Positions 8,261 to 58,463 of a stretch of DNA of 64,000 nucleotides are shown piece by piece (positions within the stretch are counted from its first letter, which is position 1; every line of letters begins with the position of its first letter). The stretch comes from Candidatus Bipolaricaulis sibiricus. Lineage in GTDB: Bacteria; Bipolaricaulota; Bipolaricaulia; Bipolaricaulales; Bipolaricaulaceae. Both the position numbers and the translations under genes were made by a program. The stretch spans positions 1,542,153-1,606,152 of the forward strand of contig CP034928.1 in NCBI GenBank assembly GCA_004102645.1, given 5' to 3'. The notes under the pieces are model-generated. The model was not told the origin of the DNA, did no database searches, and worked only from the letters and a program-made list of their open reading frames with translations.

Positions 8261-8746
8261 CTAGAACCAGAGGGCGAGGGCCACCGCTGCCAGCGCCAGG
8301 ACGACCCCGGTCACCCCAAGCACGAACGCCGTCTGGGCTTTCTGGGCGATCTCCGCGTTCGCGGTCTGGCTGACCTGTGCCAGCTGGACCCGGATCGCCT
8401 GCAGCTCGCGGGCCATCGTGGCGTCGAGCGCGCTGACCCGGGTCTCCAGCGATGCCACCTGGGGACCGTAGTCGGTACCCGTCCGCGTTCCCTCGACGTT
8501 CTTGATCGCCCGGGACAGCCACTGCGCGGCGTCGTACCGCAGGAGCGGGGCGTTTCCGGAGAACTCGCCCCCTGCCCCGATCACGATGACCCCCCGCTGG
8601 ACGAGGTCCCGCACCGCCGAGTACGCGGGGTGGGTCGTGGGCACGTCCACGAACATCCCGCCGATCCCCGCGTCCGCCAGACCCGGGGTCATCGCCCACA
8701 TCGAAAGCACCACCAGACCGCATACCACACACACCGTACGCCGCAT
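8261..8746 (-). CDS. Small SLH-domain envelope protein with C-terminal membrane anchor
   Basis: A 161-residue secreted protein. It has a signal peptide (about 1-26), a single S-layer-homology domain (FVDVPTTHPAYSAVRDLVQR through RYDAAQWLSRAI, about 32-80), a heptad-like helix (VASLETRVSALDATMARELQ onward, about 95-135) and a terminal hydrophobic helix (VLGVTGVVLALAAVALALWF). SLH domains bind cell-wall polymers. The tail suggests that the other end sits in a membrane, so the protein could tether wall and membrane. The SD AAGGAGG lies 8 bases before the ATG. Topology is inference; the SLH call is firm. Confidence 0.8.
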   Translation of the reverse strand: MRRTVCVVCGLVVLSMWAMTPGLADAGIGGMFVDVPTTHPAYSAVRDLVQRGVIVIGAGGEFSGNAPLLRYDAAQWLSRAIKNVEGTRTGTDYGPQVASLETRVSALDATMARELQAIRVQLAQVSQTANAEIAQKAQTAFVLGVTGVVLALAAVALALWF

Positions 8747-10068: not shown

Positions 10069-10457
10069 ACGTGCGCAGAACGGGGGAGGTCCGACACCAC
10101 GGGTTCTGTAGCGTCGCACCCTGCGTGCGACGCGGGATCGTTGGCGACGAACGGACGGCCGTCGGGCATGAAGGCCGACGCCACAACGGCGGGGTTGCGT
10201 CACGTCGCAGCTCGCCTGCGACGAACGCACGGGGTTCCGTCGCCTCGCACCCCACGTTACGACGGCCATCCCACGACGCCGGACCGTCGCCCAGGGGCCG
10301 CCGCGGGCCGACCCCTGTCCGTCAGGGGGGAGAGGATCCAGCCTCGGGAGACCGGCCAGGGCAGGCCGCGTTGTCCTCTTCCCACAGTGGTCGCATTGCC
10401 GTCGGCACCGGCCCCGCGCCGGAAGGCGCGTCGGTAACATCCATCACCCCTGGAGTC
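10069..10457. other. Intergenic region rich in GTCGCA palindromes
   Basis: I see no supported gene here. The first 200 bases contain three to four copies of a short palindrome described as a separate repeat. The rest (10266-10457) is plain GC-rich sequence leading into the strong promoter at 10458. Confidence 0.5.
10111..10265. repeat. Cluster of GTCGCA...TGCGAC palindromes
   Basis: Perfect copies are GCGTCGCA-ccctgcg-TGCGACGC (10111-10133) and CGTCGCAG-ctcgc-CTGCGACG (10203-10223). A degenerate third has outer arms CCGTCG (10237-10242) and CGACGG (10260-10265). A further perfect copy lies at 7988-8008. The stem is constant and the 5-7 base loop varies, so pairing appears conserved rather than exact sequence. 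They may be REP-like elements or protein-binding sites. Confidence 0.7.
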
Positions 10458-10486
10458 TTGACAGGGGACAGACGGATCGCTACCAT
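10458..10486 (+). promoter_or_regulatory. Strong promoter of the Cys-rich outer-membrane protein gene
   Basis: Consensus TTGACA (10458-10463), a 17-base spacer and TACCAT (10481-10486). Transcription from about 10493 would give a 128-base leader containing the palindrome TTCGGGATCCCGAA (about 10545-10560) and ending in a strong SD. Confidence 0.75.
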
Positions 10487-10620
10487 GACCCCCGTATCCG
10501 CCGAAGAGGGAGGTGGTGTGCCGTAAGAAGAGGACAGACGTTCTTGCGGGATTTCGGGATCCCGAATGTGCGGAAGGCAGTACAAACCGAAATTGACCTA
10601 GGTACAAGGAGGATGGATCC

Positions 10621-11721
10621 ATGAAGCGGGCTCTCGCGATTGCAGTAGCGCTTTGTACGATCGGCGTTGGCGCGTTTGGTCTGGGGACGTTTAGCGGGAA
10701 GTGGGAGGGCGGAATCACGTTGCTCCCCACTCCCACGCTCACGAAGAACACCCTCACCATCAACTACACGGACTTCGGCCTCACGTTCACCGGGGTGCTG
10801 AGCCTCCTCGGCGGCAGTGCCGACACCTTCACCGCCAGCGTGAAGGGCATGTTCGGGCCGTTCAGCGTGAGCGGCAAAATGAACTTTGACTTCGACAACC
10901 CGGCCTACTTGGGCGGCGAGCTGTCCACCGGGTTTGACTTCGGCGGGGTTGGCCTCAGCCTGCTCGTCAACCACTACATGGCGCAGCAGTCACCGCCGTG
11001 CGGGGACTTCCCTGCTGGTCCCAACCTGAAGTACACCTTCACGGGCACCCTCGCGCCGTTCACGGTGAAGGCCATCTTCTGGGACTGCTGCACTGGGACG
11101 TTCTTCTACAACCTGAACGTCGGGTTGAAGGGCGTGGGGCTGTGCTGCGGCGTGACCTTTGACGTCGTGTTCGACTTCCTGAAGACCGGGTTCAACTATC
11201 TCCAGTTCTCGCTCAAGGACTTTGCCGCCATCTGCTGCGGCATCTCCTTCGACGCCACGATCAAGTTCACGATCGACCAGAAGATCGTTACGATCACACC
11301 GAAGTTCGCCGGAATCGGCGATGCCTGCTTCACGGTGTTCGCGGACATCCCGACTGACGCCGAGTACTTGCCGGCTCTCGAGATCTACGGCTGGGCCATC
11401 AGGTGCACGCTCGCCGACTGCAACTACCTCGAGTGGGTCCACGCCGTCGACGTGACGTACCTCACGGCCGCGGGCTACACGTTCGTGGGCGACTCGAACG
11501 AGTACTTCAAGCTCGGCTTCTGCGGCGCCGGCTGCTGCGGCGGGCAGTGGAAGGCCGATCTCGCGGTCTACTTCCAGTCGGATACTCCGGGCGCTGGCCT
11601 GTTCGGCATCGTCGCGCTGGGCTTCAACCTCCAGCTCCCGATCATGTCGAACCTGACCGTGACGGTTGGCTTCAGCAACCCGCCGACCACGTTGACCTTG
11701 GGCTGGACGTTCACGTTCTAG
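10621..11721 (+). CDS. Cys-rich predicted outer-membrane beta-barrel protein
   Basis: A 366-residue secreted protein I do not recognise as a named family. It has a signal peptide (1-20, MKRALAIAVALCTIGVGAFG) and then almost entirely alternating polar/hydrophobic strands. It ends in LGWTFTF; a C-terminal Phe after alternating hydrophobics resembles the BamA recognition signal. Several CC pairs (DCCTG, LCCGV, ICCGI, GCCGG) and single Cys suggest multiple disulfides or metal sites. It has a consensus promoter, a strong SD (AAGGAGGAT, 10606-10614) and an intrinsic terminator, so high expression is likely. Porin-like function is inference. Confidence 0.75.
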   Translation: MKRALAIAVALCTIGVGAFGLGTFSGKWEGGITLLPTPTLTKNTLTINYTDFGLTFTGVLSLLGGSADTFTASVKGMFGPFSVSGKMNFDFDNPAYLGGELSTGFDFGGVGLSLLVNHYMAQQSPPCGDFPAGPNLKYTFTGTLAPFTVKAIFWDCCTGTFFYNLNVGLKGVGLCCGVTFDVVFDFLKTGFNYLQFSLKDFAAICCGISFDATIKFTIDQKIVTITPKFAGIGDACFTVFADIPTDAEYLPALEIYGWAIRCTLADCNYLEWVHAVDVTYLTAAGYTFVGDSNEYFKLGFCGAGCCGGQWKADLAVYFQSDTPGAGLFGIVALGFNLQLPIMSNLTVTVGFSNPPTTLTLGWTFTF

Positions 11722-11745
11722 TCTAGCCTTACTCACGGTGTATCC

Positions 11746-11780
11746 ACGGGCCCCGGACTCCGGGGCCCGTTCCTTTTCGT
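11746..11780 (+). terminator. Intrinsic terminator after the Cys-rich protein
   Basis: ACGGGCCCCGG pairs with CCGGGGCCCGT around a very short loop and is followed by TTCCTTTTCG. This is the best classical terminator in the window. Confidence 0.85.
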
Positions 11781-12013
11781 CTCCCCCAATCCCACTCACC
11801 GCCAAGGTCGGGGAGCACGCCGAGAAACCCCGCGGCCTTGGGCCCTGACACCCAGGTCCCTTGGGGGTTCTTGGTGCCCTCGGGGCGAAAGGATCCCGGT
11901 CCCTCTGCCGCCCCCGGGCCTCGCCGGCGGGGAGGGGGCCCGCGGTTGGGATTCGCCGTATGCTGGCCGTGGGCCCCCAGCGCGCGCCGGCGGCCCCATG
12001 GGAGGTGGTCGCG

Positions 12014-13597
12014 ATGAAGAGGTACATCCTCGCGGGCTTGCTCTTCGTCGCCGTCGTCACGGCGGTCGGGCAAGAGGTGCCCCCTCGGACGAAGTTCGAG
12101 GTGGCGGATCTCCAACTTGTCTCGCACGAGGCGTTGCCCGACGGGACGGTGGCCCACAGCGGTCCTGTCTGCGCGGCGATCGTGATGGCCTGGTTCGCGG
12201 AACACGGATACCCCGCCCTGCTGCCCGACCTGAACGGCGACGGCGTGGTGGACCAGGCGGACACGGTTCTCCTTGCGGCGCGGTTCGCGAAGGACATGGC
12301 GGTCGGGCCCGACCGTCCTGCCCTCGATCCGCGGTTGATGGACGCCCTGGCGCGGTACGTTGCGGACCGCTACCCCCACGAGTTCGTCCTCAAGCTGTGG
12401 GACGACTCGTTCGCGGAGGAGTACCGAACGGTGCTCGGCAAGCCTTTTGCCCCTTCGGATTACCCGGGCATCGCCGTCGAGATCCACCCCAACGCATCGC
12501 ACGCGGACTACACGAAGGAGCTCCTGGCGGGCGAAGGCGTGGTCCTCGGGCTGGGGAAGGAGCGAGCGACGAACACCTTCTTCGTCGGCCGGTCGTTCGA
12601 GTTCGAGGAGAAGACCGACGGCTGGCCGATCGACGTCGTGGACACGGCGGACGACCCGACAGAGGCCGGGGGCCAGGCCCAGGTGTTCCCGACGGTCATG
12701 AAGAGGGGGCCCGAGGGGTGGTGGCTCGTTCGCTATGCGGGCTGGATCCCGCTCGAGTTCATGCTCTCCTTGTCCCCCATCCGCCGACCGGTGATCGGAA
12801 CGGTCCCCGGCCCCTGCCCGACCGGGGCGATCGGCTACGACGTGGTCACGGTGACTTCGGAGTGGGGGAGCTTCCGGGTCGAGGAGTGCGTGACCCGCGA
12901 GGGCGACCGCGACCTCTACACCTACACCGTGACCAACGTCAACTTCGTCTACAATGGGTGCGGAATCTGCGAGTTCTTCGTCCCGAACCTCCACGGCTTC
13001 CCCACGGTGGATCAGTGGGGGCCGGCGGGCTGGCTCGTGAATCCGTTTGGCCCGTGGAGCTGGATTGCGCCGCTGGGGGACTGCGGGATCGCGCCTGGGT
13101 CGGCGGCGGGGTTCGGGTTTTCCGTGCCCGCACCGACGAGCGACACCTGGCAAGGGGCGGCGGCCGCGGGCTGCGCCCAGCCGACGGGCGTGGCCGTCCT
13201 CCTTCCGCCCCAAGTCAAGTTCCGCACCACCGGGCCCGGACCGGGCGAAACCGGGTGTCCCGACCTCGTGGCGCTCAAGCTGACGGCCTGCTGGCGGATC
13301 ACCCCGCGCCAGGAGATCGAAGTCCTCGTCACCGCGATCATCCGAAACGTTGGCCCGACAGCGAGCGGCGGCTTCTGGGTCTGCATCGAGGTCGGATCGA
13401 ACTCCACGGTGGACTACTCCTCAGGCCTCGCTCCGGGAGCGACGTCCACCCTCTCCACCTCGTTGGTCGTCGCCCCTCCCCTTTCGTTCCCGATCTTGGT
13501 TGCGGTGGTCGCGGACTGCTTCTCCCAGGTGAACGAGTGCAGCGAGACCAACAACGAGGCCACGTTCAACGTGGGGCGCGAGAACGCGTGCAAGTAG
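12014..13597 (+). CDS. Secreted protein with dockerin-like loop and possible C39-like fold
   Basis: A 527-residue protein with a signal peptide (MKRYILAGLLFVAVVTAVGQ). Near residue 55, PVCAAIVMAWFAEHGYP resembles the catalytic-Cys helix of C39-like papain-fold proteins. It is interrupted at about 74-90 by DLNGDGVVDQADTVLLA, a Ca-binding half of a dockerin repeat. A hydrophobic domain with many Cys follows, then a C-terminal CARDB-like module (residues about 415-520, ending SETNNEATFNVG). The SD GGAGGTGG lies 5 bases before the ATG. It faces the large protease gene tail to tail. Peptidase activity is unproven; no clear catalytic His is assigned. Confidence 0.75.
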   Translation: MKRYILAGLLFVAVVTAVGQEVPPRTKFEVADLQLVSHEALPDGTVAHSGPVCAAIVMAWFAEHGYPALLPDLNGDGVVDQADTVLLAARFAKDMAVGPDRPALDPRLMDALARYVADRYPHEFVLKLWDDSFAEEYRTVLGKPFAPSDYPGIAVEIHPNASHADYTKELLAGEGVVLGLGKERATNTFFVGRSFEFEEKTDGWPIDVVDTADDPTEAGGQAQVFPTVMKRGPEGWWLVRYAGWIPLEFMLSLSPIRRPVIGTVPGPCPTGAIGYDVVTVTSEWGSFRVEECVTREGDRDLYTYTVTNVNFVYNGCGICEFFVPNLHGFPTVDQWGPAGWLVNPFGPWSWIAPLGDCGIAPGSAAGFGFSVPAPTSDTWQGAAAAGCAQPTGVAVLLPPQVKFRTTGPGPGETGCPDLVALKLTACWRITPRQEIEVLVTAIIRNVGPTASGGFWVCIEVGSNSTVDYSSGLAPGATSTLSTSLVVAPPLSFPILVAVVADCFSQVNECSETNNEATFNVGRENACK

Positions 13598-13777: not shown

Positions 13778-16700
13778 CTACGGGCAGCCCGCGTCTCTCT
13801 CACGGTGCTCGATATCCCACCGAATCGTGGTGCAGGTAGGGTAGGTACCGCCTGAGCAGTAGCCTACCTGGAAGTTCGCCGACGGGAGAAGTGCCGGCGC
13901 ACTCCCGCGCAGCAACACGAACGGGTTGTTCGGCGGGTTGGTCTTGCACGTCCGAAGGTAGACGAGGCCGATACGAGCAGCGTGAGTCGCCGGCCTTGCC
14001 ACGCCATCGCCGTCCGTATCCAAGTACAGCGTGAGCTGCATCGAGTTGGCTCCGGAGAGGTCGAAGGCCAGGTCGAACCAGCCCGAGCCGATCGAACCTT
14101 CCCAGGTGAGCTTGGTCAACCCACCGGAGGTGGTGATCGTAGGCGCCGGCGTCGTCCCGGGCGTAAGGACCCGGTTGGCAAACGTCCCTGGAGTCTCCAG
14201 GATCACCTGGAACGGCCGCGGAGCAGCCCAGCTCGGGTCACCGGCCACGGTGACGTGCCACTTGTTCTCCGGGTCGCCCCACACGTAGATCCCCGGCTTG
14301 TCGATCGTCGGCATCCCGGGGAGGGTCGAGGGCGGAGGACCGACCTGGATCGTGCGCGTGGCGGTCCCCGTCGCGCCGAGGTTGTCGGTCACGGTGAGGG
14401 TCACGGTGTACAGACCCGCCGATGCGTAGGCCTTCGTCACGTTGGCCGTCGTCACGGTCGACGTGGTTCCGTCGCCGAAGCTCCAGGCGTAGCTCACGAT
14501 CGTCCCGTCAGGATCGGAGGACCCCGACGCGTCGAACGTGACGTTCTGCCCAGGGTTGGGATTCGCCGGGCTGAACGTGAAGCTCGCCGTGGGCGGCTGG
14601 TTGGGCGGGGTCACCACCACCGTACGGGTGGTGGTGCCGGTCGCCCCCCGGTTGTCGGTCACGGTGAGGGTCACGGTGTACGTTCCCGCCGCGCTGTACC
14701 GCTTCTGGATCTGGGACCCGGTGCCGGTCGCCCCGTCGCCGAAGTTCCACGCCCAGGCGGTGATCGTGCCGTCGGGGTCGCTCGACCCGCGCCCGTCGAA
14801 GGTGATCCACTGGTTCACGAGCGGGTTCGAGGGGGAGAAGGTGAACGACGCCGTCGGCGGCTGGTTCGTGGGCAGAACGATCGTGAACGGGGCGCTGGCC
14901 TCGGCCCACGACCCGCTCGGCACGTTCGCGCTCAGCCACGAACGCACCTGGGACAGGAAGAACGCCCCGTTCGTCGACAGGATCGGGAACCCAGTCCCGA
15001 ACGAGGTGGGGAAGAACGGAATCGCCCGATCGGCGGCGAACCCCACGATCTGCTCGCTTCCCACCGGTTCGGAGGTGGTGTAGGAGTACGCCGTCGTCCG
15101 CGGGAGCTGGGTGGTCCCCGCGGGAAGCTGCGGGCTCGTCTCCCACCGGTTGGGGAAGATGAACACTGCCCGGCCGGCCGCGTCGAGCTCGACGAGGTAC
15201 ACGTAGCTCGCCCGGGACAGGGTCACCGTGACCCGCACCGGCTCGCCCACGGTGTACGTGGACTTGTCGGTGGCCACGGCGAACGCGAGCGGCGCCGCGG
15301 CGCCGATCACCTGCACCTGGCGGGTGTTGTTCGTCTCGTCGCTCTCCGCGACCTGGCTGTAGAAGTCGGCGGTCGCCGTGAACGTCTCGGGCGACGTGGA
15401 CAGGGGCAGGCTGAACGAGAGGTTCGTCTGCGCTCCAGCGGCGAGGGACCCCACGGTTCGATCCTGGAACGGACCGACGCCTTGGAGCCGGACCACGAAC
15501 GACCCGGCGTTCGCCGTCCCCTGGTTCCGCACGGTGACGGTGAAGCTCACCGTCGACCCCACGGTGGGGTTCGTCGGGGTCCACACGATGTTCGTGACCA
15601 CCAAGTCGGGCTGCGCTGGCGCGGTGACCGTGACCTGGCGGGTGTTGTTCGTCTCGTCGCTTTCCGCGACCTGGTTGTAGAAGTCGGCGGTGGCGGTGAA
15701 CGTCTCCGGCGACGTCGTGAGCGGCAACGTGAACGTCCGCGTCACCGACGCCCCCGCCGCCAACGACGGCACGCTCTGATCCGACGGCGAGCCGGCACCC
15801 TGGACCCGCACCACCGACGAGGCCGCCGAGGCGGTGCCCTGGTTCCGCACGACCACGGTGAACGTGATCGTCTGGCCCAGGTTCGGGTTCGTCGGGGAGT
15901 GGGTGATCGACTGGATCACGAGATCGGGGAGCGCGGGGGCCTGGATGACGAACGAGGCCGAGAGCGTCCCCGCGTTCTGGGTCTGGAGCTCGACGGTGTA
16001 GGTTCCCGGTGGAACCTGGGCTCCGAAGCTGTCCCGCCCGTCCCAGGTCCACGATCGGGATGTGCCGGGGGCCACGGGGGTGATGACCATCGCCGCGAAC
16101 GGCGTGAACACCACCTGCCCGCCGGAGTTCCGGATGGCCCATGGGGCGGCGTTGGGAAGATCCACGGTCACGCTACCCGTGTTGTGCAACGTGATGCCGA
16201 CCGTTTCGCCTACGACGTAGCTCGCCTTGTCCGTGGTGAGCTGGGCCTGTGGCGGAGGAGCCTGACCGACCACGGTGACCTGCCCGGTGTTGTTCGTCTC
16301 GTCGGACTCCGAAACCTGGTTGAACACGTCCGCCGTCGCTGTGAACGTCTCGGGCGTCGTCGACAGCGGCAGCGTGAACGTCCGCGTCACCGATGCCCCC
16401 GCCGCCAGCGAGCTCACGCTCTGGTCCTGCGACGGTCCCGTCCCCTGCAGCCGCACCGTGAACGCCCCCGCGCTCGCCGTCCCCTGGTTCCGCACCGTCA
16501 CCTGGAACGTGACCGTCGACCCCACCGTCGGGTTCGTCGGACTGTGGGTGATCGACTGGATGACGAGGTCGGGCTGAGCCGTCGGTTGGGGTGAGGCCAC
16601 GAGCCGCCCTGCCCCGAACGCGTACGGGTCTCCCATCGCCACGCAGAACGACAGGATGCGGCTCGTGAGGGTCGCTCGGGTCAGAGCGGCGTTCTCCGCC

Positions 16701-18634
16701 TTGAGCAAGGCGGCCACCCCCGCCACGTGCGGCGCGGCGGCCGACGTGCCGGGGAACGGGTTGTAGAAGCTGACCCCGGTCGTCACGTTGGCCGGCGCGG
16801 CGAGGTCGGGCTTGGACCGCCCGTCCGTCGTGGGCCCCCGGGAGGAGTAGGGGGCGATCGGGCCGGTGGTGTAGCTCGACCAGTCGATTGCCCCCACGGT
16901 GAGCACCTCGGCCGCGTTCCCTGGGGCAGGGATGCTCGACGCGGACACGACCGGGCTCACCTCCTGCAGAATCGAGAACAGCGACAGGCGGCGCGCCCCG
17001 CCCGCGGCCTTCTGAATGCGCACCCGGTACGTGCCGGCTGTGCTGGCCGTGGTGGTGATCCGCTCGGTGGGGGCCTCGGTCCCGCTCTGGGTGGCCGTGG
17101 AGCTCGCCACCAGCGTTCCCGTGGGACCGTACAGGTAGAGGTCGTAGTCGTCGGCGGTGGCCGGCCAGGCGTCCCACGTCAGGTAGAGGATGATCTGTTG
17201 GCCCGCGGTGGCGGTGAACGTGATGTCCGTGTCGTGCCAGCCATCACCGTTGGCGTCGGTGAACGTGGCCCCGTAGTGCTTCTGGCCGGAGTTGCCGGCT
17301 GCCTGGACCCACAGGATGCCGGCCGACGTCGCCCGGCGGGCGATGTCGGCGATGGTTCCCGTTCCATCGTAGAAGTTCGTGTTGAACCACCCGAGCGAGT
17401 GGTTGATGATGTGCACACCCTCGGAGATGCAGTACGTCACGGCATTGTCGAGGTCGACTTCGTTCGCGATCTTGATCAGGTAGAGCTGGGCATCGGGGGC
17501 CACGTCGTGGACGATCTGGGCCACGGCGGTGCCGTGGGAAACCCCCGACGCAATGCCAGTGCCCGTGAAATCGCGGGTGATCACGCTGTACGGCAGGTCG
17601 CCCCCGGCCTGGGCGGCCGACAGCCCGTTGAACCCAAGGTCGATCACGGCGATCTTCACGCCCGAACCGCGGATGCCCGCGGCGTGGAAGGCGGCGGCGC
17701 CCACCAGGGCGGCCCCTTCGGAGGTCACGGCCATCTCGTGCGGGACATAGGGGAGCCTCACGTACACCCCGGCCCCCACCTGGGCGAGGAAGCTCTCCAG
17801 CTGCCCCAGCGGAACGGTGACCTTGGACAGCCCAAGGGGTGACGTGGTGGTCTCCACGGCTACCCCGAGCGGGGCCACGCTCCCCCCTCTCGACTCCACA
17901 ACGAGGGTCACCTCTCCTCCCGCTGTAAGGGGGATCCCCAGCATCCCCGCCACGCGGGTCACGGCATCGCGGGCCTGGGACGGAAGTTGGGCGAGCGCGG
18001 TGAGAGGCCCGGTCGGAACGACCTGTCGCACCGCCGAGAGCAGGGTCTCCAGCGACCCGTCGACATGGGGGTTCGACTTCGCCGTCTTCGTGATCGTGAT
18101 CGACCCGATGGTCAGCGGAACGGCCTTGGCCGTTGCGGTGGAACTCGCGGTGCCACCGGCCCGAAGGAAGGTCAGGAACTGGACCGCCTGGCTCACCCGC
18201 GGGGAACGGGTGGACACGCCTGCGAACGCATCCCCCCGCCACGGGAGGACGACACCGATCACGCGCCCGCCGTAGCTGTACAGCTCCAGACCGGCAGCCT
18301 GGAGCTGGGAGGCATAGGAGGACAGATCGGCGAACCGCGAGGCGACGGTCGGCGTCCAGGTCATGAGGGCCTGGGCGACGTCGAACCGCACCGTGCCGAG
18401 GCCGGCCAACAGGTAGACCTGGTTGTAGAGGGCCGCCTCGTTGTAGTCCTTCACCGTGGCCGTGATCCCAGCCCCGCGGGCCTGGGCCACGACGGCATCC
18501 CACGCCGCCCGATCGGCGTCGAGGGCCAACACGTCGACCTGGGCCACCGCGATCGCGCTGGTCACAGACGCAACAAGGAACGCGCCGACGGCGCGCCGCA
18601 GCACAAGGGGCAGTCGAAGTCGAGCTAGGTTCAT
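13778..18634 (-). CDS. Large secreted subtilisin-like (S8) protease with CARDB and PKD modules
   Basis: A 1618-residue exoprotein with a signal peptide (about 1-31). A 270-residue N-terminal region of unknown fold ends in VYVRLPYVPHEMAV. The S8 domain has Asp332 (VIDLGFNG), His367 (SHGTAVAQIV), oxyanion Asn448 (AAGNSG) and Ser631 (PGTSAAAPHVAGVAALL), with a beta insert at about 470-545. Then come three CARDB domains (about 688-790, 898-1000, 1007-1105), a DUF4384-like segment (about 1110-1230, FAVATDKSTYTVGEPVRVTV), two PKD domains (about 1256-1435) and a Cys-containing C-terminal domain. The catalytic set is complete. I started at ATG 18634, just behind the companion gene's stop. Likely extracellular or surface-bound protein degradation. 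Confidence 0.9.
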   Translation of the reverse strand: MNLARLRLPLVLRRAVGAFLVASVTSAIAVAQVDVLALDADRAAWDAVVAQARGAGITATVKDYNEAALYNQVYLLAGLGTVRFDVAQALMTWTPTVASRFADLSSYASQLQAAGLELYSYGGRVIGVVLPWRGDAFAGVSTRSPRVSQAVQFLTFLRAGGTASSTATAKAVPLTIGSITITKTAKSNPHVDGSLETLLSAVRQVVPTGPLTALAQLPSQARDAVTRVAGMLGIPLTAGGEVTLVVESRGGSVAPLGVAVETTTSPLGLSKVTVPLGQLESFLAQVGAGVYVRLPYVPHEMAVTSEGAALVGAAAFHAAGIRGSGVKIAVIDLGFNGLSAAQAGGDLPYSVITRDFTGTGIASGVSHGTAVAQIVHDVAPDAQLYLIKIANEVDLDNAVTYCISEGVHIINHSLGWFNTNFYDGTGTIADIARRATSAGILWVQAAGNSGQKHYGATFTDANGDGWHDTDITFTATAGQQIILYLTWDAWPATADDYDLYLYGPTGTLVASSTATQSGTEAPTERITTTASTAGTYRVRIQKAAGGARRLSLFSILQEVSPVVSASSIPAPGNAAEVLTVGAIDWSSYTTGPIAPYSSRGPTTDGRSKPDLAAPANVTTGVSFYNPFPGTSAAAPHVAGVAALLKAENAALTRATLTSRILSFCVAMGDPYAFGAGRLVASPQPTAQPDLVIQSITHSPTNPTVGSTVTFQVTVRNQGTASAGAFTVRLQGTGPSQDQSVSSLAAGASVTRTFTLPLSTTPETFTATADVFNQVSESDETNNTGQVTVVGQAPPPQAQLTTDKASYVVGETVGITLHNTGSVTVDLPNAAPWAIRNSGGQVVFTPFAAMVITPVAPGTSRSWTWDGRDSFGAQVPPGTYTVELQTQNAGTLSASFVIQAPALPDLVIQSITHSPTNPNLGQTITFTVVVRNQGTASAASSVVRVQGAGSPSDQSVPSLAAGASVTRTFTLPLTTSPETFTATADFYNQVAESDETNNTRQVTVTAPAQPDLVVTNIVWTPTNPTVGSTVSFTVTVRNQGTANAGSFVVRLQGVGPFQDRTVGSLAAGAQTNLSFSLPLSTSPETFTATADFYSQVAESDETNNTRQVQVIGAAAPLAFAVATDKSTYTVGEPVRVTVTLSRASYVYLVELDAAGRAVFIFPNRWETSPQLPAGTTQLPRTTAYSYTTSEPVGSEQIVGFAADRAIPFFPTSFGTGFPILSTNGAFFLSQVRSWLSANVPSGSWAEASAPFTIVLPTNQPPTASFTFSPSNPLVNQWITFDGRGSSDPDGTITAWAWNFGDGATGTGSQIQKRYSAAGTYTVTLTVTDNRGATGTTTRTVVVTPPNQPPTASFTFSPANPNPGQNVTFDASGSSDPDGTIVSYAWSFGDGTTSTVTTANVTKAYASAGLYTVTLTVTDNLGATGTATRTIQVGPPPSTLPGMPTIDKPGIYVWGDPENKWHVTVAGDPSWAAPRPFQVILETPGTFANRVLTPGTTPAPTITTSGGLTKLTWEGSIGSGWFDLAFDLSGANSMQLTLYLDTDGDGVARPATHAARIGLVYLRTCKTNPPNNPFVLLRGSAPALLPSANFQVGYCSGGTYPTCTTIRWDIEHRERDAGCP
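14330..14875 (-). repeat. Two tandem PKD-domain repeats within the S8 protease gene
   Basis: The two units are 270 bases (90 codons) apart. The segment GTTGTCGGTCACGGTGAGGG is identical at 14381-14400 and 14651-14670. Each unit encodes PPTASFTFSP...WxFGDG...TYTVTLTVTDN. Confidence 0.85.
15316..16573 (-). repeat. Three CARDB-domain repeats within the S8 protease gene
   Basis: Near-identical DNA starts at 15316, 15634 and 16279; the first two are exactly 318 bases (106 codons) apart. Each encodes PDLV...SPTNP...RNQGTA...SLAAGA...SPETFTATADFY...SDETNNT. High DNA-level identity suggests recent duplication or gene conversion. Confidence 0.85.
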
Positions 18635-18639
18635 CGGGA

Positions 18640-19380
18640 TCAGCCTCCCACAGCAGGGTACGGAGTGAACGGCGGGCGAACGCTCCGCACCGCCGGGTCT
18701 TGGCCCAGCTTGGAAAGCAGGGCGATCGGAATCAACAGCTCCGTCAGCGACCCACTGGAGTTGAGCACGTACGGTTCCAGATCCTCGGCCAACGCGGTCG
18801 CTGCCTCGGCCACCACCCGCACCCGTAGACCCACCCGCTCCAGGCCGAAGTCCCGAGCAGCGCCGAACCAGTCCGGATGCCCCACCAGCGCCCACAGGGT
18901 GGGATCGAGTTTGATCCCTTCCGGCACCCGCGGGAGTTTGAGGGCCAGCTCTTTGACCGTCAGGCTGATCGTGATCCCCTCGTCAAGCAGGCCCAGTTCA
19001 CGCATGAGGTCGAAGAACGCCTCGGACGGGGGTACGAGACCATCGGCCGCCCAGACGATGAGTTCGGCCTTCTCGCCGTTCCCACGCAGGGTGATCCGCT
19101 CCGCGCCGGTCTCCACTCCCAGCAAGAACTGCTCGCCATCGAGATAGAGGTAGGTTCCCCCGGCACGCAGGGCGTCCTCGCTCTCGGCTCCCATCAGCAC
19201 GAGCTCGCCCTCGGTCCAGGCCGCAGTTGCCACTTCGAGCTCGTGGGCCCGGTCCGGCAGCTTGGCCACGGCCCCGCTCGGCAAGCCAATCTCCGCCCAC
19301 AGGTAACGGGGCGTCTCGGCCCGAACCCCAAGCCCTGCCCCCAGGGCCAGCACAACCACCAGTGCGAATCGTATGGACAT
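18640..19380 (-). CDS. Secreted companion protein upstream of the S8 protease
   Basis: A 246-residue protein with a signal peptide (about 1-22, ending GVRAE); no family recognised. The body is mixed alpha/beta with long hydrophobic runs (LTELLIPIALLSKLG). Its end, [15 protein letters not shown], resembles the VYVRLPYVPHE segment immediately before the catalytic domain of the adjacent protease. That makes me suspect a stand-alone relative of the protease N-terminal region. The gene ends 5 bases before the protease ATG, so the two are almost certainly co-transcribed. A TATATT -10-like site lies at 19400-19405, and AAAGGGGGG precedes the ATG. Confidence 0.75.
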   Translation of the reverse strand: MSIRFALVVVLALGAGLGVRAETPRYLWAEIGLPSGAVAKLPDRAHELEVATAAWTEGELVLMGAESEDALRAGGTYLYLDGEQFLLGVETGAERITLRGNGEKAELIVWAADGLVPPSEAFFDLMRELGLLDEGITISLTVKELALKLPRVPEGIKLDPTLWALVGHPDWFGAARDFGLERVGLRVRVVAEAATALAEDLEPYVLNSSGSLTELLIPIALLSKLGQDPAVRSVRPPFTPYPAVGG

Positions 19381-54804: not shown

Positions 54805-56943
54805 CTAGAACATCGGGCCCATCCCGAACTCAAACGCTGGAACCCACGTCGGCTCACGATCGTTGGGCCACGCGAGGGCCAGCCGGACAAACATCCCGGC
54901 CACGCTCGCCGCTACCTCGATCCCCAGGGATGACTTGACGGTCCCGTCCCAGGTGGCACCGAAGTCCCCGAACAGGGCGATCCACGATCCCTGGGCGATC
55001 TCGACCCGGAACTCGCTGTTCAGGAGCCCGTAGCGATCCGTACGCACGGCCTTCGCGCCCCGCACCGTGTCTACCCCGCCGAGGCTGAACCGGTACCGTT
55101 CAGGGAGGTCCCACCCCCACCGGATGAGCGCTCGCCAGGCGAACACGGCCCGCGTCTCACCAAACAGCAACGGAAGATCGAGCGGGGCGAACCGCGCCAT
55201 CTCCGGCTTCAGGGTCAGGTACTCCACTCCCGGGGCGAACGTCCCTGCCTTCTCCACTGACACCCGCCCCCGCCCCCCGGTCCGTGGGAAGAACGGGCTG
55301 TCCCGATCGTCGTAGACCAGTCCCACGTCCACCGAGGTCCGGGGGTCAAGGATCGTCCACTCCGGAAGCTCCCACGCCTGCTCGCTCGACAACCCTACCG
55401 ACAGCTTGAGGTACGGAGCCAGAGGGTAGGCAACCGAGGCTCCCCCGCCGAGAGTGACGGTGACCGGATCCTCGCCCGATTGCCTCCGGTAGAACTCCAC
55501 GCTCACCAGGTCGAACACGGGGAACGAATGGCTCCGGAACCCAAGGCTCCAGGTCGTGGACCCGCCGCTCGTCAGGCCCTTGTCCAGCGATACGTCGAGA
55601 TCGAATGCGCGTCCCAGCACGTTCTTCTGGCTGTACGTCAGGTTGCCGACGATCCCTTGGTCCTGAGGAGAGAACGCCAGATTGCCGCCAATGCTCCCCA
55701 GCTTCTCGATGTCGGTCACGGTGATCTTGAGGACAAGGTCGTCGGCCACCCATCGCGGTTCCAGGAGAACGTCTTGAAAGTACCCGAGCGCCATCAGGGC
55801 TTGACGCCCGGCGACAAACCGCCCTTCGGTCAAGAACTGACCCGGTGGAAGGCCGACCACCCGTTCGATCACCCAGCCTGCGGTGCGCGTGTCTTCGCTG
55901 ACCTCGATCCGGGCGACTCGCCCCTCCTTGACCCGCACCTGCAGACGGCCTCCTGCCATTCCCTCCGCCACGAAGTCCACCATGAAGAAACCCTCGCGAC
56001 GGTAGTAGTCGTAGACGGGACCGAGCGCCCGCAGGACGTCGTAGTTCGTCGCCTCCCCGTTCGGGAGCGGCCCGACTCGCGTCTGAACACGCTCCGGAGC
56101 GAACGCCGTCACGCCGACAAGCTCGATTCCGGTGAGAGCCGTAGGAACCGGGAGAAGCACCCGCTCCTCAAGGTTCCAGATGAGCCATATCCCCCCGTCC
56201 CCCATCTCCGCCTCCACGCCCCCCGACGCGAAGAACACCGACCGCCCCAGCCCGCTCAAGGTCTCCTGAATGTGCGAGATCTTCCCGACCTCCCCCACCG
56301 GAACGACAACGAGTTTCCGCGCTTCCTCCTCCGGAATCGTCGATAGCCCCCGGAACCGATGACCCGCGATCACGAGTTCCTCAACGATGAAGACCAGTTC
56401 GTCTCCTCGGAGATCAGGTTGGATCTGAATCGTCGCCCAGTCTAGCTTGCGATACTCGTCGGCCAGCGCGGTCAGCGCGGCCTCGATCTTCACCTGGTTG
56501 AGAACCGTTCCTGTCTTCACGCCCTTGTCGGTGAGGATCTCGCGCAGCCGGGTCTCGGTGGGCCGGTTGCCTCCCCGCAGCGCCTCTTGAAGCCAGGACC
56601 ACAGGGTCCCCTTCCCTCTGGGAGCCGGAGGCAGGCCTTCAAACGTGATGCGCTCGATCTTCGGGTACTCCACGACCCGGAACCGGACAACGACCAAGTC
56701 CCCATCGAACGCCAGCTCGGGGGTGACCTGCACGAAGTACCCCAACTTCTGCACCGCCTGGACAGCAGCCAACACCTCATCCCGTGTGACCTGCTGGCCC
56801 ACGCTGAACTTCACCGCGCTCAGGATCTCCGCCGTCGAGAGATGAACGTTCCCCACGACCTCGATCCGCCCCACGGTGAAGTCCTGGGCCATCACCAGCG
56901 CAGCCCAGCCAGCAACAACAAGGACAACCCACAGGTATCTCAC
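54805..56943 (-). CDS. bamA: Outer-membrane protein assembly factor BamA
   Basis: Omp85 insertase; 712 residues. Signal peptide (about 1-20, ending VMAQ), several POTRA domains (FTVGRIEVVGNVHLSTAEIL near 21; VLLPVPTALTGIELVGVTAF mid-protein; RVARIEVSEDTRTAGWVIER), and a C-terminal 16-strand barrel with YDDRDSPFFPRTGG, the VRG of loop 6 (LGGVDTVRGAKAVRTDRYG) and a terminal Phe (GMGPMF). It starts with GTG overlapping comM TGA as GTGA, SD GGAGGAGGG. Direct evidence for an outer membrane. Confidence 0.94.
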   Translation of the reverse strand: MRYLWVVLVVAGWAALVMAQDFTVGRIEVVGNVHLSTAEILSAVKFSVGQQVTRDEVLAAVQAVQKLGYFVQVTPELAFDGDLVVVRFRVVEYPKIERITFEGLPPAPRGKGTLWSWLQEALRGGNRPTETRLREILTDKGVKTGTVLNQVKIEAALTALADEYRKLDWATIQIQPDLRGDELVFIVEELVIAGHRFRGLSTIPEEEARKLVVVPVGEVGKISHIQETLSGLGRSVFFASGGVEAEMGDGGIWLIWNLEERVLLPVPTALTGIELVGVTAFAPERVQTRVGPLPNGEATNYDVLRALGPVYDYYRREGFFMVDFVAEGMAGGRLQVRVKEGRVARIEVSEDTRTAGWVIERVVGLPPGQFLTEGRFVAGRQALMALGYFQDVLLEPRWVADDLVLKITVTDIEKLGSIGGNLAFSPQDQGIVGNLTYSQKNVLGRAFDLDVSLDKGLTSGGSTTWSLGFRSHSFPVFDLVSVEFYRRQSGEDPVTVTLGGGASVAYPLAPYLKLSVGLSSEQAWELPEWTILDPRTSVDVGLVYDDRDSPFFPRTGGRGRVSVEKAGTFAPGVEYLTLKPEMARFAPLDLPLLFGETRAVFAWRALIRWGWDLPERYRFSLGGVDTVRGAKAVRTDRYGLLNSEFRVEIAQGSWIALFGDFGATWDGTVKSSLGIEVAASVAGMFVRLALAWPNDREPTWVPAFEFGMGPMF

Positions 56944-58463
56944 GCTGTTCCCTCCTCCGGGAATGCTCGGTATTGTAGGGCCTCCGCCACGTGCTCGGGT
57001 TCGATGGTAGCGGAACCCGCGAGATCCGCAATCGTGAGGGCTACCTTGAGCGTGCGAACGTAGCCCCTGCCCGTAAGAGCGAAGTGGTCTACCGCACGGC
57101 CGAGGAGTGCCTTCGCCTCGGGACCGATTCGACACGAGCGCCGAGCCTCGCGAGGACCGATCTCAGCGTTCGTTCGAGTTGCGGCCCCGAACCGCCTCCG
57201 CTGGACCTCACGGGCATGCGCGATTCTTTTCCGAACTGCTTCCGACGCCTCTCCCCCTCCCTCGCCAAGGAGTTCGTCCCGCGAGAGGCGCGGAACCTGC
57301 ACGAACAGATCCACTCGATCGAGAAACGGACCGGACAGCCGCTTTCGGTAGCTCGCCACCTCGTGCGGTCGGCACCGGCACGGTCGGAGGGGATCCCCAA
57401 GGTAGCCACATGGGCAGGGGTTCATCGCCCCCACAAGCATGAACGAGGCCGGAAAGGTCACCGCGATCCCGGCGCGCACAACGGTGATCCGCCGCTCTTC
57501 CAACGGCTGGCGCAGCGCCTCCAGCACCTTGCGATCGAACTCCGGCAGTTCGTCCAAGAAGAGGACACCGTGGTGCGCAAGCGTGATCTCACCAGGGCTG
57601 GGGACGCCATGACCGCCTCCCACCATTCCTGCGTAGGACACGGTGTGGTGCGGGGAGCGGAACGGGCGCCACTGGAGGAGCGGCCGCTCCGGGGAGAGCA
57701 AGCCCGCAACTGAGTGGATACGCGTGACCTCCAGCGCTTCGTCGAAGGTGAGCGGAGGAAGGATCCCCGGTAGACACTGGGCAAGGAGCGACTTGCCCGC
57801 ACCCGGCGGCCCGACCATCAGGAGGTGATGAGCGCCGGCCGCTGCGATCTCCATCGCCCGCCGCGCGTGCTCCTGCCCACGAACGAGGGAAAGATCGATC
57901 CAGTCAGGCATATCCGCCGGGGGGACAACCCGCGGGGCAGGCGCAACCGACCGCTCTCCGCGCAGGAACGCGACAGCTTCCCCGAGCGTCGAGACCGGGT
58001 ACACGGCAAGCCCATCCACAAGCGCTGCCTCTGCGGCGGATGAGGCGGCAACGACGGCCCGCTGGACCCCGGCCTGCCGTGCGGCAAGCGCCATCGCCAC
58101 CATCCCCCGCACCGGCCGCAGGCCGCCATCGAGTGCCAGCTCTCCCAAGAACACCGTCCCCGCCGTGGCCTGACCTTCCAACTGCCCCGTCGCCACCAAG
58201 ACGGTGACCGCCAGGGCGAGGTCGAATCCCGCCCCCTCCTTGCGTACGTCCGCCGGGGCGAGGTTGGCCGTGACGCGAAGCTGCGGAAACGCCAGGCCGG
58301 CATTGCGGATCGCGGAGCGGACCCGCTCTCGAGCCTCAGACACCTCCTTCTCGGGAAGCCCCACAATCGCGAACCCTGGAAGACCTGGACCCACGTCACA
58401 CTGGACTTCGATCAACCGGGCGTCCACACCGTACGGCGCTGCACTAAGCACCTGGGCGAACAT
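56940..58463 (-). CDS. comM: ComM-like Mg-chelatase-family AAA+ ATPase (YifB)
   Basis: AAA+ helicase-type protein; ComM promotes branch migration in natural transformation. 507 residues: N-terminal Lon-like fold (LSAAPYGVDARLIEVQCDVG to FLGELALDGGLRPVRG), Walker A MVGPPGAGKSLLAQ, Walker B VLFLDELPEFDR, the PCPCGYLGD zinc-like loop and C-terminal YVRTLKVALTIADLAG. ATG 58463 has CGGGAGGAAG directly upstream and overlaps yraN by 20 bases. Confidence 0.92.
   Translation of the reverse strand: MFAQVLSAAPYGVDARLIEVQCDVGPGLPGFAIVGLPEKEVSEARERVRSAIRNAGLAFPQLRVTANLAPADVRKEGAGFDLALAVTVLVATGQLEGQATAGTVFLGELALDGGLRPVRGMVAMALAARQAGVQRAVVAASSAAEAALVDGLAVYPVSTLGEAVAFLRGERSVAPAPRVVPPADMPDWIDLSLVRGQEHARRAMEIAAAGAHHLLMVGPPGAGKSLLAQCLPGILPPLTFDEALEVTRIHSVAGLLSPERPLLQWRPFRSPHHTVSYAGMVGGGHGVPSPGEITLAHHGVLFLDELPEFDRKVLEALRQPLEERRITVVRAGIAVTFPASFMLVGAMNPCPCGYLGDPLRPCRCRPHEVASYRKRLSGPFLDRVDLFVQVPRLSRDELLGEGGGEASEAVRKRIAHAREVQRRRFGAATRTNAEIGPREARRSCRIGPEAKALLGRAVDHFALTGRGYVRTLKVALTIADLAGSATIEPEHVAEALQYRAFPEEGTA

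Follow-up and report, generated by a model that had tools for sequence, protein, structure and literature searches.

The window, i.e., the whole stretch of 64,000 nucleotides analysed here, belongs to the genome (1.70 Mb, single contig) of a member of the Bipolaricaulota, a phylum of uncultured, oxygen-avoiding bacteria. Its focus is a gene predicted to encode a Cys-rich outer-membrane beta-barrel protein, considered below together with the following features, of which the anchor and BamA genes lie on the opposite strand.

8261–8746, minus strand: Omp-alpha-like anchor, 161 aa, with a signal peptide, an SLH domain (PF00395), a coiled coil and a C-terminal transmembrane helix
10458–10486, plus strand: sigma-70-type promoter, TTGACA-17-TACCAT
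10506–10518, plus strand: extended Shine-Dalgarno-like element near the predicted 5' end, GAGGGAGGTGGTG, ~100 nt ahead of the start codon
10555–10568 (approximate to a few bases), plus strand: leader palindrome TTCGGGATCCCGAA, 14 bp
10608–10614 (approximate to a base or two), plus strand: Shine-Dalgarno sequence of the main gene, AAGGAGG
10621–11721, plus strand: main gene, 366 aa, predicted Cys-rich outer-membrane beta-barrel protein, Omp-beta-like
10999–11091, plus strand: codons of the predicted extracellular-side cysteine triad, C127, C156 and C157
11143–11238, plus strand: CC pairs C175/C176 and C205/C206, located in turns 10/11 and 12/13, both predicted to be periplasmic
11326–11538, plus strand: C236, C262, C267, C301, C305 and C306, in predicted periplasmic turns 14/15, 16/17 and 18/19
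11746–11770, plus strand: intrinsic terminator hairpin, 11-bp stem followed by a T-rich tail
54808–57162, minus strand: BamA/Omp85-family protein (open frame of 785 aa), the sole Omp85 match found in the host genome

Expression signals and leader

Most of the signals that the initial annotation had read around the main gene were recovered. The promoter is the sole promoter-like site within positions 10100–12100 (0.2 expected), and both its site and its spacing are kept, with a TTGAC-type promoter of 16–17 nt spacing lying 133–168 bp upstream in 18/18 MKRALA-type orthologues. The strong Shine-Dalgarno sequence and the classical terminator are likewise in place, and the 366-aa product can be read as a signal peptide (approximately residues 1–20, MKRALAIAVALCTIGVGAFG) followed by a beta-rich body that terminates in GWTFTF. 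This C-terminus is porin-like, the final TLGWTFTF being conserved and combining the terminal Phe with alternating hydrophobic residues. The product is presumably exported by the Sec pathway and would be abundant. The leader had also been described as structured, a description that is unsupported since the leader folds no better than shuffled sequence (z = -0.14); it is nevertheless conserved in 18/18 orthologues.

Within this leader, the Shine-Dalgarno-like element matches 9–12 of the 12 letters of AAAGGAGGTGAT in 18/18 MKRALA-type orthologues and keeps a near-constant distance from the promoter (48–57 bp past the start of the -35 box in all 18), which places it ~13–20 nt into the predicted transcript. 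No start codon follows it at 4–10 nt in 17/18 orthologues, the one exception being the gene of the window itself, where such a codon opens an ORF of two codons. Most of the paralogues tested have neither the promoter nor the element, and two of them (L030 and L031) are similarly arranged to the main gene. The palindrome TTCGGGATCCCGAA is kept in many orthologues, not in all, and a search of the leader against Rfam matched no riboswitch and no other family. A conserved leader peptide was considered and rejected because the reading frames differ among orthologues. The closest parallel is the STAB-SD of Bacillus thuringiensis cry3A, a Shine-Dalgarno-like sequence near the 5' end of the leader that initiates no translation (PMC4113751). 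The likeness is one of anatomy only, with a transcript start at -129 in cry3A (PMC4113751) and one predicted at about -127 for the gene of the window, but a conserved element of this kind would carry an idea about mRNA stabilisation from Firmicutes to a distant phylum.

Distribution of the family and its SLH-bearing neighbour

The family profile matches 91/100 Bipolaricaulota genomes, with up to 14 members per genome and six to eight in the host. The initial annotation had assigned the protein to no recognised family and proposed a search for homologues within the phylum; the former assessment holds for Pfam, NCBIfam and PDB, and the latter returned a phylum-wide, multi-copy family with conserved Cys positions. 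More precisely, no relative of the barrel protein was found in Pfam or NCBIfam, no SLH or other Pfam domain was detected within it, and PDB sequences searched with a profile yielded no relative at E <= 5. When 24 family members were compared to Pfam, only chance-level matches were obtained, none of them to the chlamydial major outer-membrane protein (MOMP). No relatives were found in viral contigs, and a scan of 84,980 species, which detects close relatives only, returned a single locus, from a 'Candidatus Bipolaricaulota bacterium' of the Bipolaricaulaceae. Altogether, this is very probably a new, phylum-wide family of outer-membrane proteins, the Omp-beta-type porin of Bipolaricaulota.

Some paralogues have an unusual context. 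One ends a giant open frame of the host genome (3283 aa; C1:1625728-1635576, i.e., L037:3229-13077), in which the barrel is preceded, in turn, by DUF11-like repeats, by a hydrophobic helix whose end is basic and by a second signal-like hydrophobic stretch. Giant frames ending in a barrel also occur at four further loci (L089, L090, L091, L092), one of which (L091) has a TAG within the barrel part, while two loci from other genomes (L093, L094) seem to have a separate start for the barrel part. Such a frame may be an autotransporter-like fusion, or it may give rise to two separate proteins.

The Omp-alpha-like gene lies 1.9 kb from the barrel gene of the window, in divergent orientation and with an isomerase gene in between. 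In its product, PF00395 scores above the Pfam cut-off, the coiled coil and transmembrane helix were read from the sequence, and the mature part is devoid of Cys. Anchor genes were found in 30/40 genomes, and in 19 of these 30, from several families, a barrel of the family is encoded within about 3 kb. The two genes are consecutive on one strand in 13 genomes (G013, G014, G015, G018, G019, G020, G024, G040, G041, G044, G045, G049, G052), to which G000, G001, G002, G003, G007 and G012 are to be added to make up the 19, and many of the same-strand pairs are within 500 bp. Among the remaining anchor-bearing genomes, some have the barrel on another contig, and in two (G005, G008) the genes are ~16 kb apart. 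In the genus of the window, the anchor gene is often divergent from the barrel gene and not directly adjacent to it. The barrel is thus quite probably the partner of the SLH anchor, which would fasten the outer membrane to the peptidoglycan. An Omp85/BamA-type gene is present in 39/40 genomes, including that of the window, and its product would insert the barrel, for which we infer a porin function.

As for the other neighbours, a large exported subtilase (13778–18895, minus strand) features CARDB, DUF4384 and PKD domains, and a similar protein adjoins the barrel gene at another locus (L036).

Evidence for a closed barrel

Structure prediction, the check proposed in the initial annotation, gave models of low confidence when AlphaFold was run on two-sequence alignments of the window protein and its L036 homologue (pLDDT of 43 and 37). 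Foldseek found no match to the first of these models in PDB at E <= 0.001, and its low-confidence matches include non-barrel beta-proteins. These models being uninformative and not counted as evidence for the fold, we relied on covariation across 139 homologues. Strand boundaries were set by hand with the aid of the first model, with an uncertainty of two in the strand count.

Mean-field covariation recovers the hairpins between neighbouring strands, and even with all Cys masked, the 21 neighbouring-strand pairs outscore the 209 non-neighbouring ones (p about 1e-10). By itself, this neighbour signal shows a beta meander only. Closure is suggested by the pairing of the first strand with the last, which ranks 5 among the 209 non-neighbour pairs, with a best register sum of 392 (Cys masked), even though the first strand covaries more strongly with strand 13, for a reason that is unexplained. 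Antiparallel ladders score better than parallel ones, weakly so overall (p = 0.10). Moreover, hydrophobic and polar residues alternate in 22/22 assigned strands (mean 2.62 vs 1.14 +/- 0.18 when shuffled).

The cysteines provide a further line of evidence. Across the tree, the pair 267/301 changes together on 4 branches (0.15 expected), and three other pairs bridging two strands also do so, namely 33/359 (3 branches), 297/315 (2) and 195/215 (2). The residue sums of these four pairs (568, 392, 612 and 410, respectively) are to be compared with Cys-masked registers of 568, 392, 612 and 412, whereas only 3.3% of random inter-strand position pairs fall within 2 of the register; in addition, all eight positions are predicted to face the lumen. 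C33–C359, a lineage-specific pair, sits on the seam between first and last strands and therefore argues for a closed barrel, the only arrangement expected to show such a pair. Two more pairs, C236/C262 (498 vs 499) and C176/C205 (381 vs 382), fit registers that are both weak. Taken together, these data agree with a barrel that is closed, comprises about 22 strands and has its Cys pairs on neighbouring strands, in register. Covariation, amphipathicity, paired Cys changes and the Phe-terminal strand all point in this direction, in agreement with the outer-membrane protein originally proposed, and we are highly confident that the product of 10621–11721 is a barrel. The alternative of a secreted or surface beta-protein (a solenoid or a sandwich stack) with disulfides could appeal to the lack of a confident model and to the non-barrel folds among the low-confidence matches, but it is very improbable in view of the 22 amphipathic strands, the Phe-terminal last strand, the first/last-strand register with its co-gained Cys pair, the pairing with an SLH-anchor gene and the presence of BamA.

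Proposed cysteine pairing and alternative roles

With 13 Cys in its mature part (3.8%), including four CC pairs, the protein departs from the Cys-poor composition of porins; the SecA, sugar-phosphate isomerase and subtilase of the window contain 0.5–1.1%. The repeated CC pairs noticed in the initial annotation are thus genuine, and the Cys positions, whose variation among homologues would have spoken against the idea, turned out to be conserved: in 26 aligned homologues of the host family, C127, C156, C157, C175, C176, C205, C206, C236, C262, C267, C301, C305 and C306 are invariant or nearly so. In the wider homologue set, one paralogue group lacks 127/156/157 as a block, and in many distant relatives 175, 176, 236, 262, 305 and 306 are retained, with 205, 206, 267 and 301 absent. 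Distant members, several of which adjoin an SLH gene, have 1–12 Cys in the whole open frame, so the full set of 13 looks like a later elaboration. Counting strands back from the C-terminus, C127, C156 and C157 would be extracellular, while the other ten would occupy five consecutive periplasmic turns.

According to the explanation that we find reasonably likely, the locus encodes a stapled major porin of the Omp-beta type with an SLH anchor partner. An abundant outer-membrane barrel of about 22 strands would serve as the general porin of a Thermotoga-like envelope, the small SLH/coiled-coil/transmembrane protein would pair with it and hold the outer membrane to the peptidoglycan, and the Cys would be paired within each barrel, their disulfides stapling its rims. 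C127 and C156 would be bonded at the extracellular rim, while C267–C301, and probably also C236–C262 and C176–C205, would clamp neighbouring strands at their periplasmic ends. The 176–205 bond fits poorly, because one homologue (L086) has lost C205 and C206 jointly without the loss of any other Cys. That the Cys are mainly engaged in disulfides is likely in our opinion.

The same barrel might instead keep its Cys reduced and hold a metal or Fe-S cluster at its periplasmic mouth (175/176, 205/206, 305/306), and so serve an anaerobe in electron transfer or in the handling of metals. This reading would account for the several CC pairs located in turns and for the vicinal Cys 205/206 and 305/306, which also change together on the tree. 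It further agrees with a host genome in which no DsbA, VKOR or Thioredoxin_4 scores above cut-off, and with a reported tendency of obligate anaerobes to keep Cys out of the proteins that they export (PMC12453122). We nonetheless deem it unlikely, since the lineage-specific, scattered pairs 33/359, 297/315 and 195/215 lie in cross-strand register, as disulfides would and without clustering as in a metal site, and since Cys added beyond the core mostly come in twos: their number is even in 25/37 full-pattern proteins (counted per sequence, not per event), while the other 12 have three extra Cys and a total that is even, with sites 43, 91+ and 128 common to most of them. Most full-pattern proteins have an odd number of Cys, hence at least one that is unpaired or intermolecular, and at the extracellular rim, C157 is predicted to point outwards. 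Both observations would suit Cys that link a barrel covalently to its neighbours or to other envelope proteins, in a MOMP-like sheet, yet the best-supported pairs are consistent with contacts within a single barrel and the mature SLH partner has no Cys to offer, which makes such a sheet more improbable still. Hence, of the roles that the initial annotation had envisaged for the CC pairs, disulfides are favoured over metal, whereas a MOMP-like network between proteins is less favoured, the best-supported pairs looking intramolecular. The disulfide chemistry of the barrel is itself something that we infer.

Surprisingly, most genomes of the host family are without DsbA and VKOR (exceptions include G013, G019 and G023), which speaks against the disulfide reading; membrane proteins of DsbD/CcdA type do occur. 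That a presumed major porin should have 13 fixed Cys, when most of the genomes are devoid of DsbA and VKOR, runs counter to the tendency reported for obligate anaerobes. Either the main porins of this anaerobic lineage are cystine-stapled without the established periplasmic oxidants DsbA and VKOR, or their Cys form a new metal site at the porin mouth, a proposition that we put forward tentatively and regard as rather doubtful; were the former true, envelope thiols would have to be oxidised by some new route. Cys in exported proteins are not unique to the barrel, as its neighbour, an exported CARDB protein (12014–13597, plus strand), is also Cys-rich, with 13 in its mature part and a dockerin-like DLNGDGVVDQAD motif recognised by eye. 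Separately, VKOR and DsbA are present in families f3 and f4, where barrels are few or weak, and barrel-rich genomes mostly lack both.

Comparison with known envelope systems

In 2018, a genome paper on the phylum left one versus two membranes undecided (PMC6092417), and a later one credits it with an outer membrane that is detached at the poles (PMC10665443). A concrete candidate pair of outer-membrane porin and anchor can now be named for Bipolaricaulota, and it is testable.

Three known systems help to situate this pair. Chlamydial MOMP, which forms disulfides with other proteins (PMC549562), is similarly a Cys-rich major outer-membrane protein, a status that is presumed here, but the present family has no Pfam match and its inferred pairs lie within one barrel. 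OmpM of Veillonella and SlpA of Deinococcus are SLH-tethered outer-membrane channels (PMC10628300, PMC9388160) in which SLH domain and barrel, of 16 and 30 strands, respectively, belong to one chain, whereas they are encoded by two genes here. The closest system is that of Thermotoga, where the Omp-alpha and Omp-beta genes apparently form one operon (PMC3387000) and OmpB/Omp-beta is predicted to have 22 strands (PMC9388160). As with OmpB (TM0476) and OmpA1 (TM0477), a barrel gene is found beside the gene of an SLH/coiled-coil/transmembrane anchor, and the predicted barrel is Phe-terminal with about 22 strands. The differences are that OmpB is Cys-poor whereas the barrel described here is Cys-rich, that the anchor, at 161 aa, has a much shorter coiled coil, and that in the genus of the window the operon-like arrangement often gives way to divergent or separated genes.
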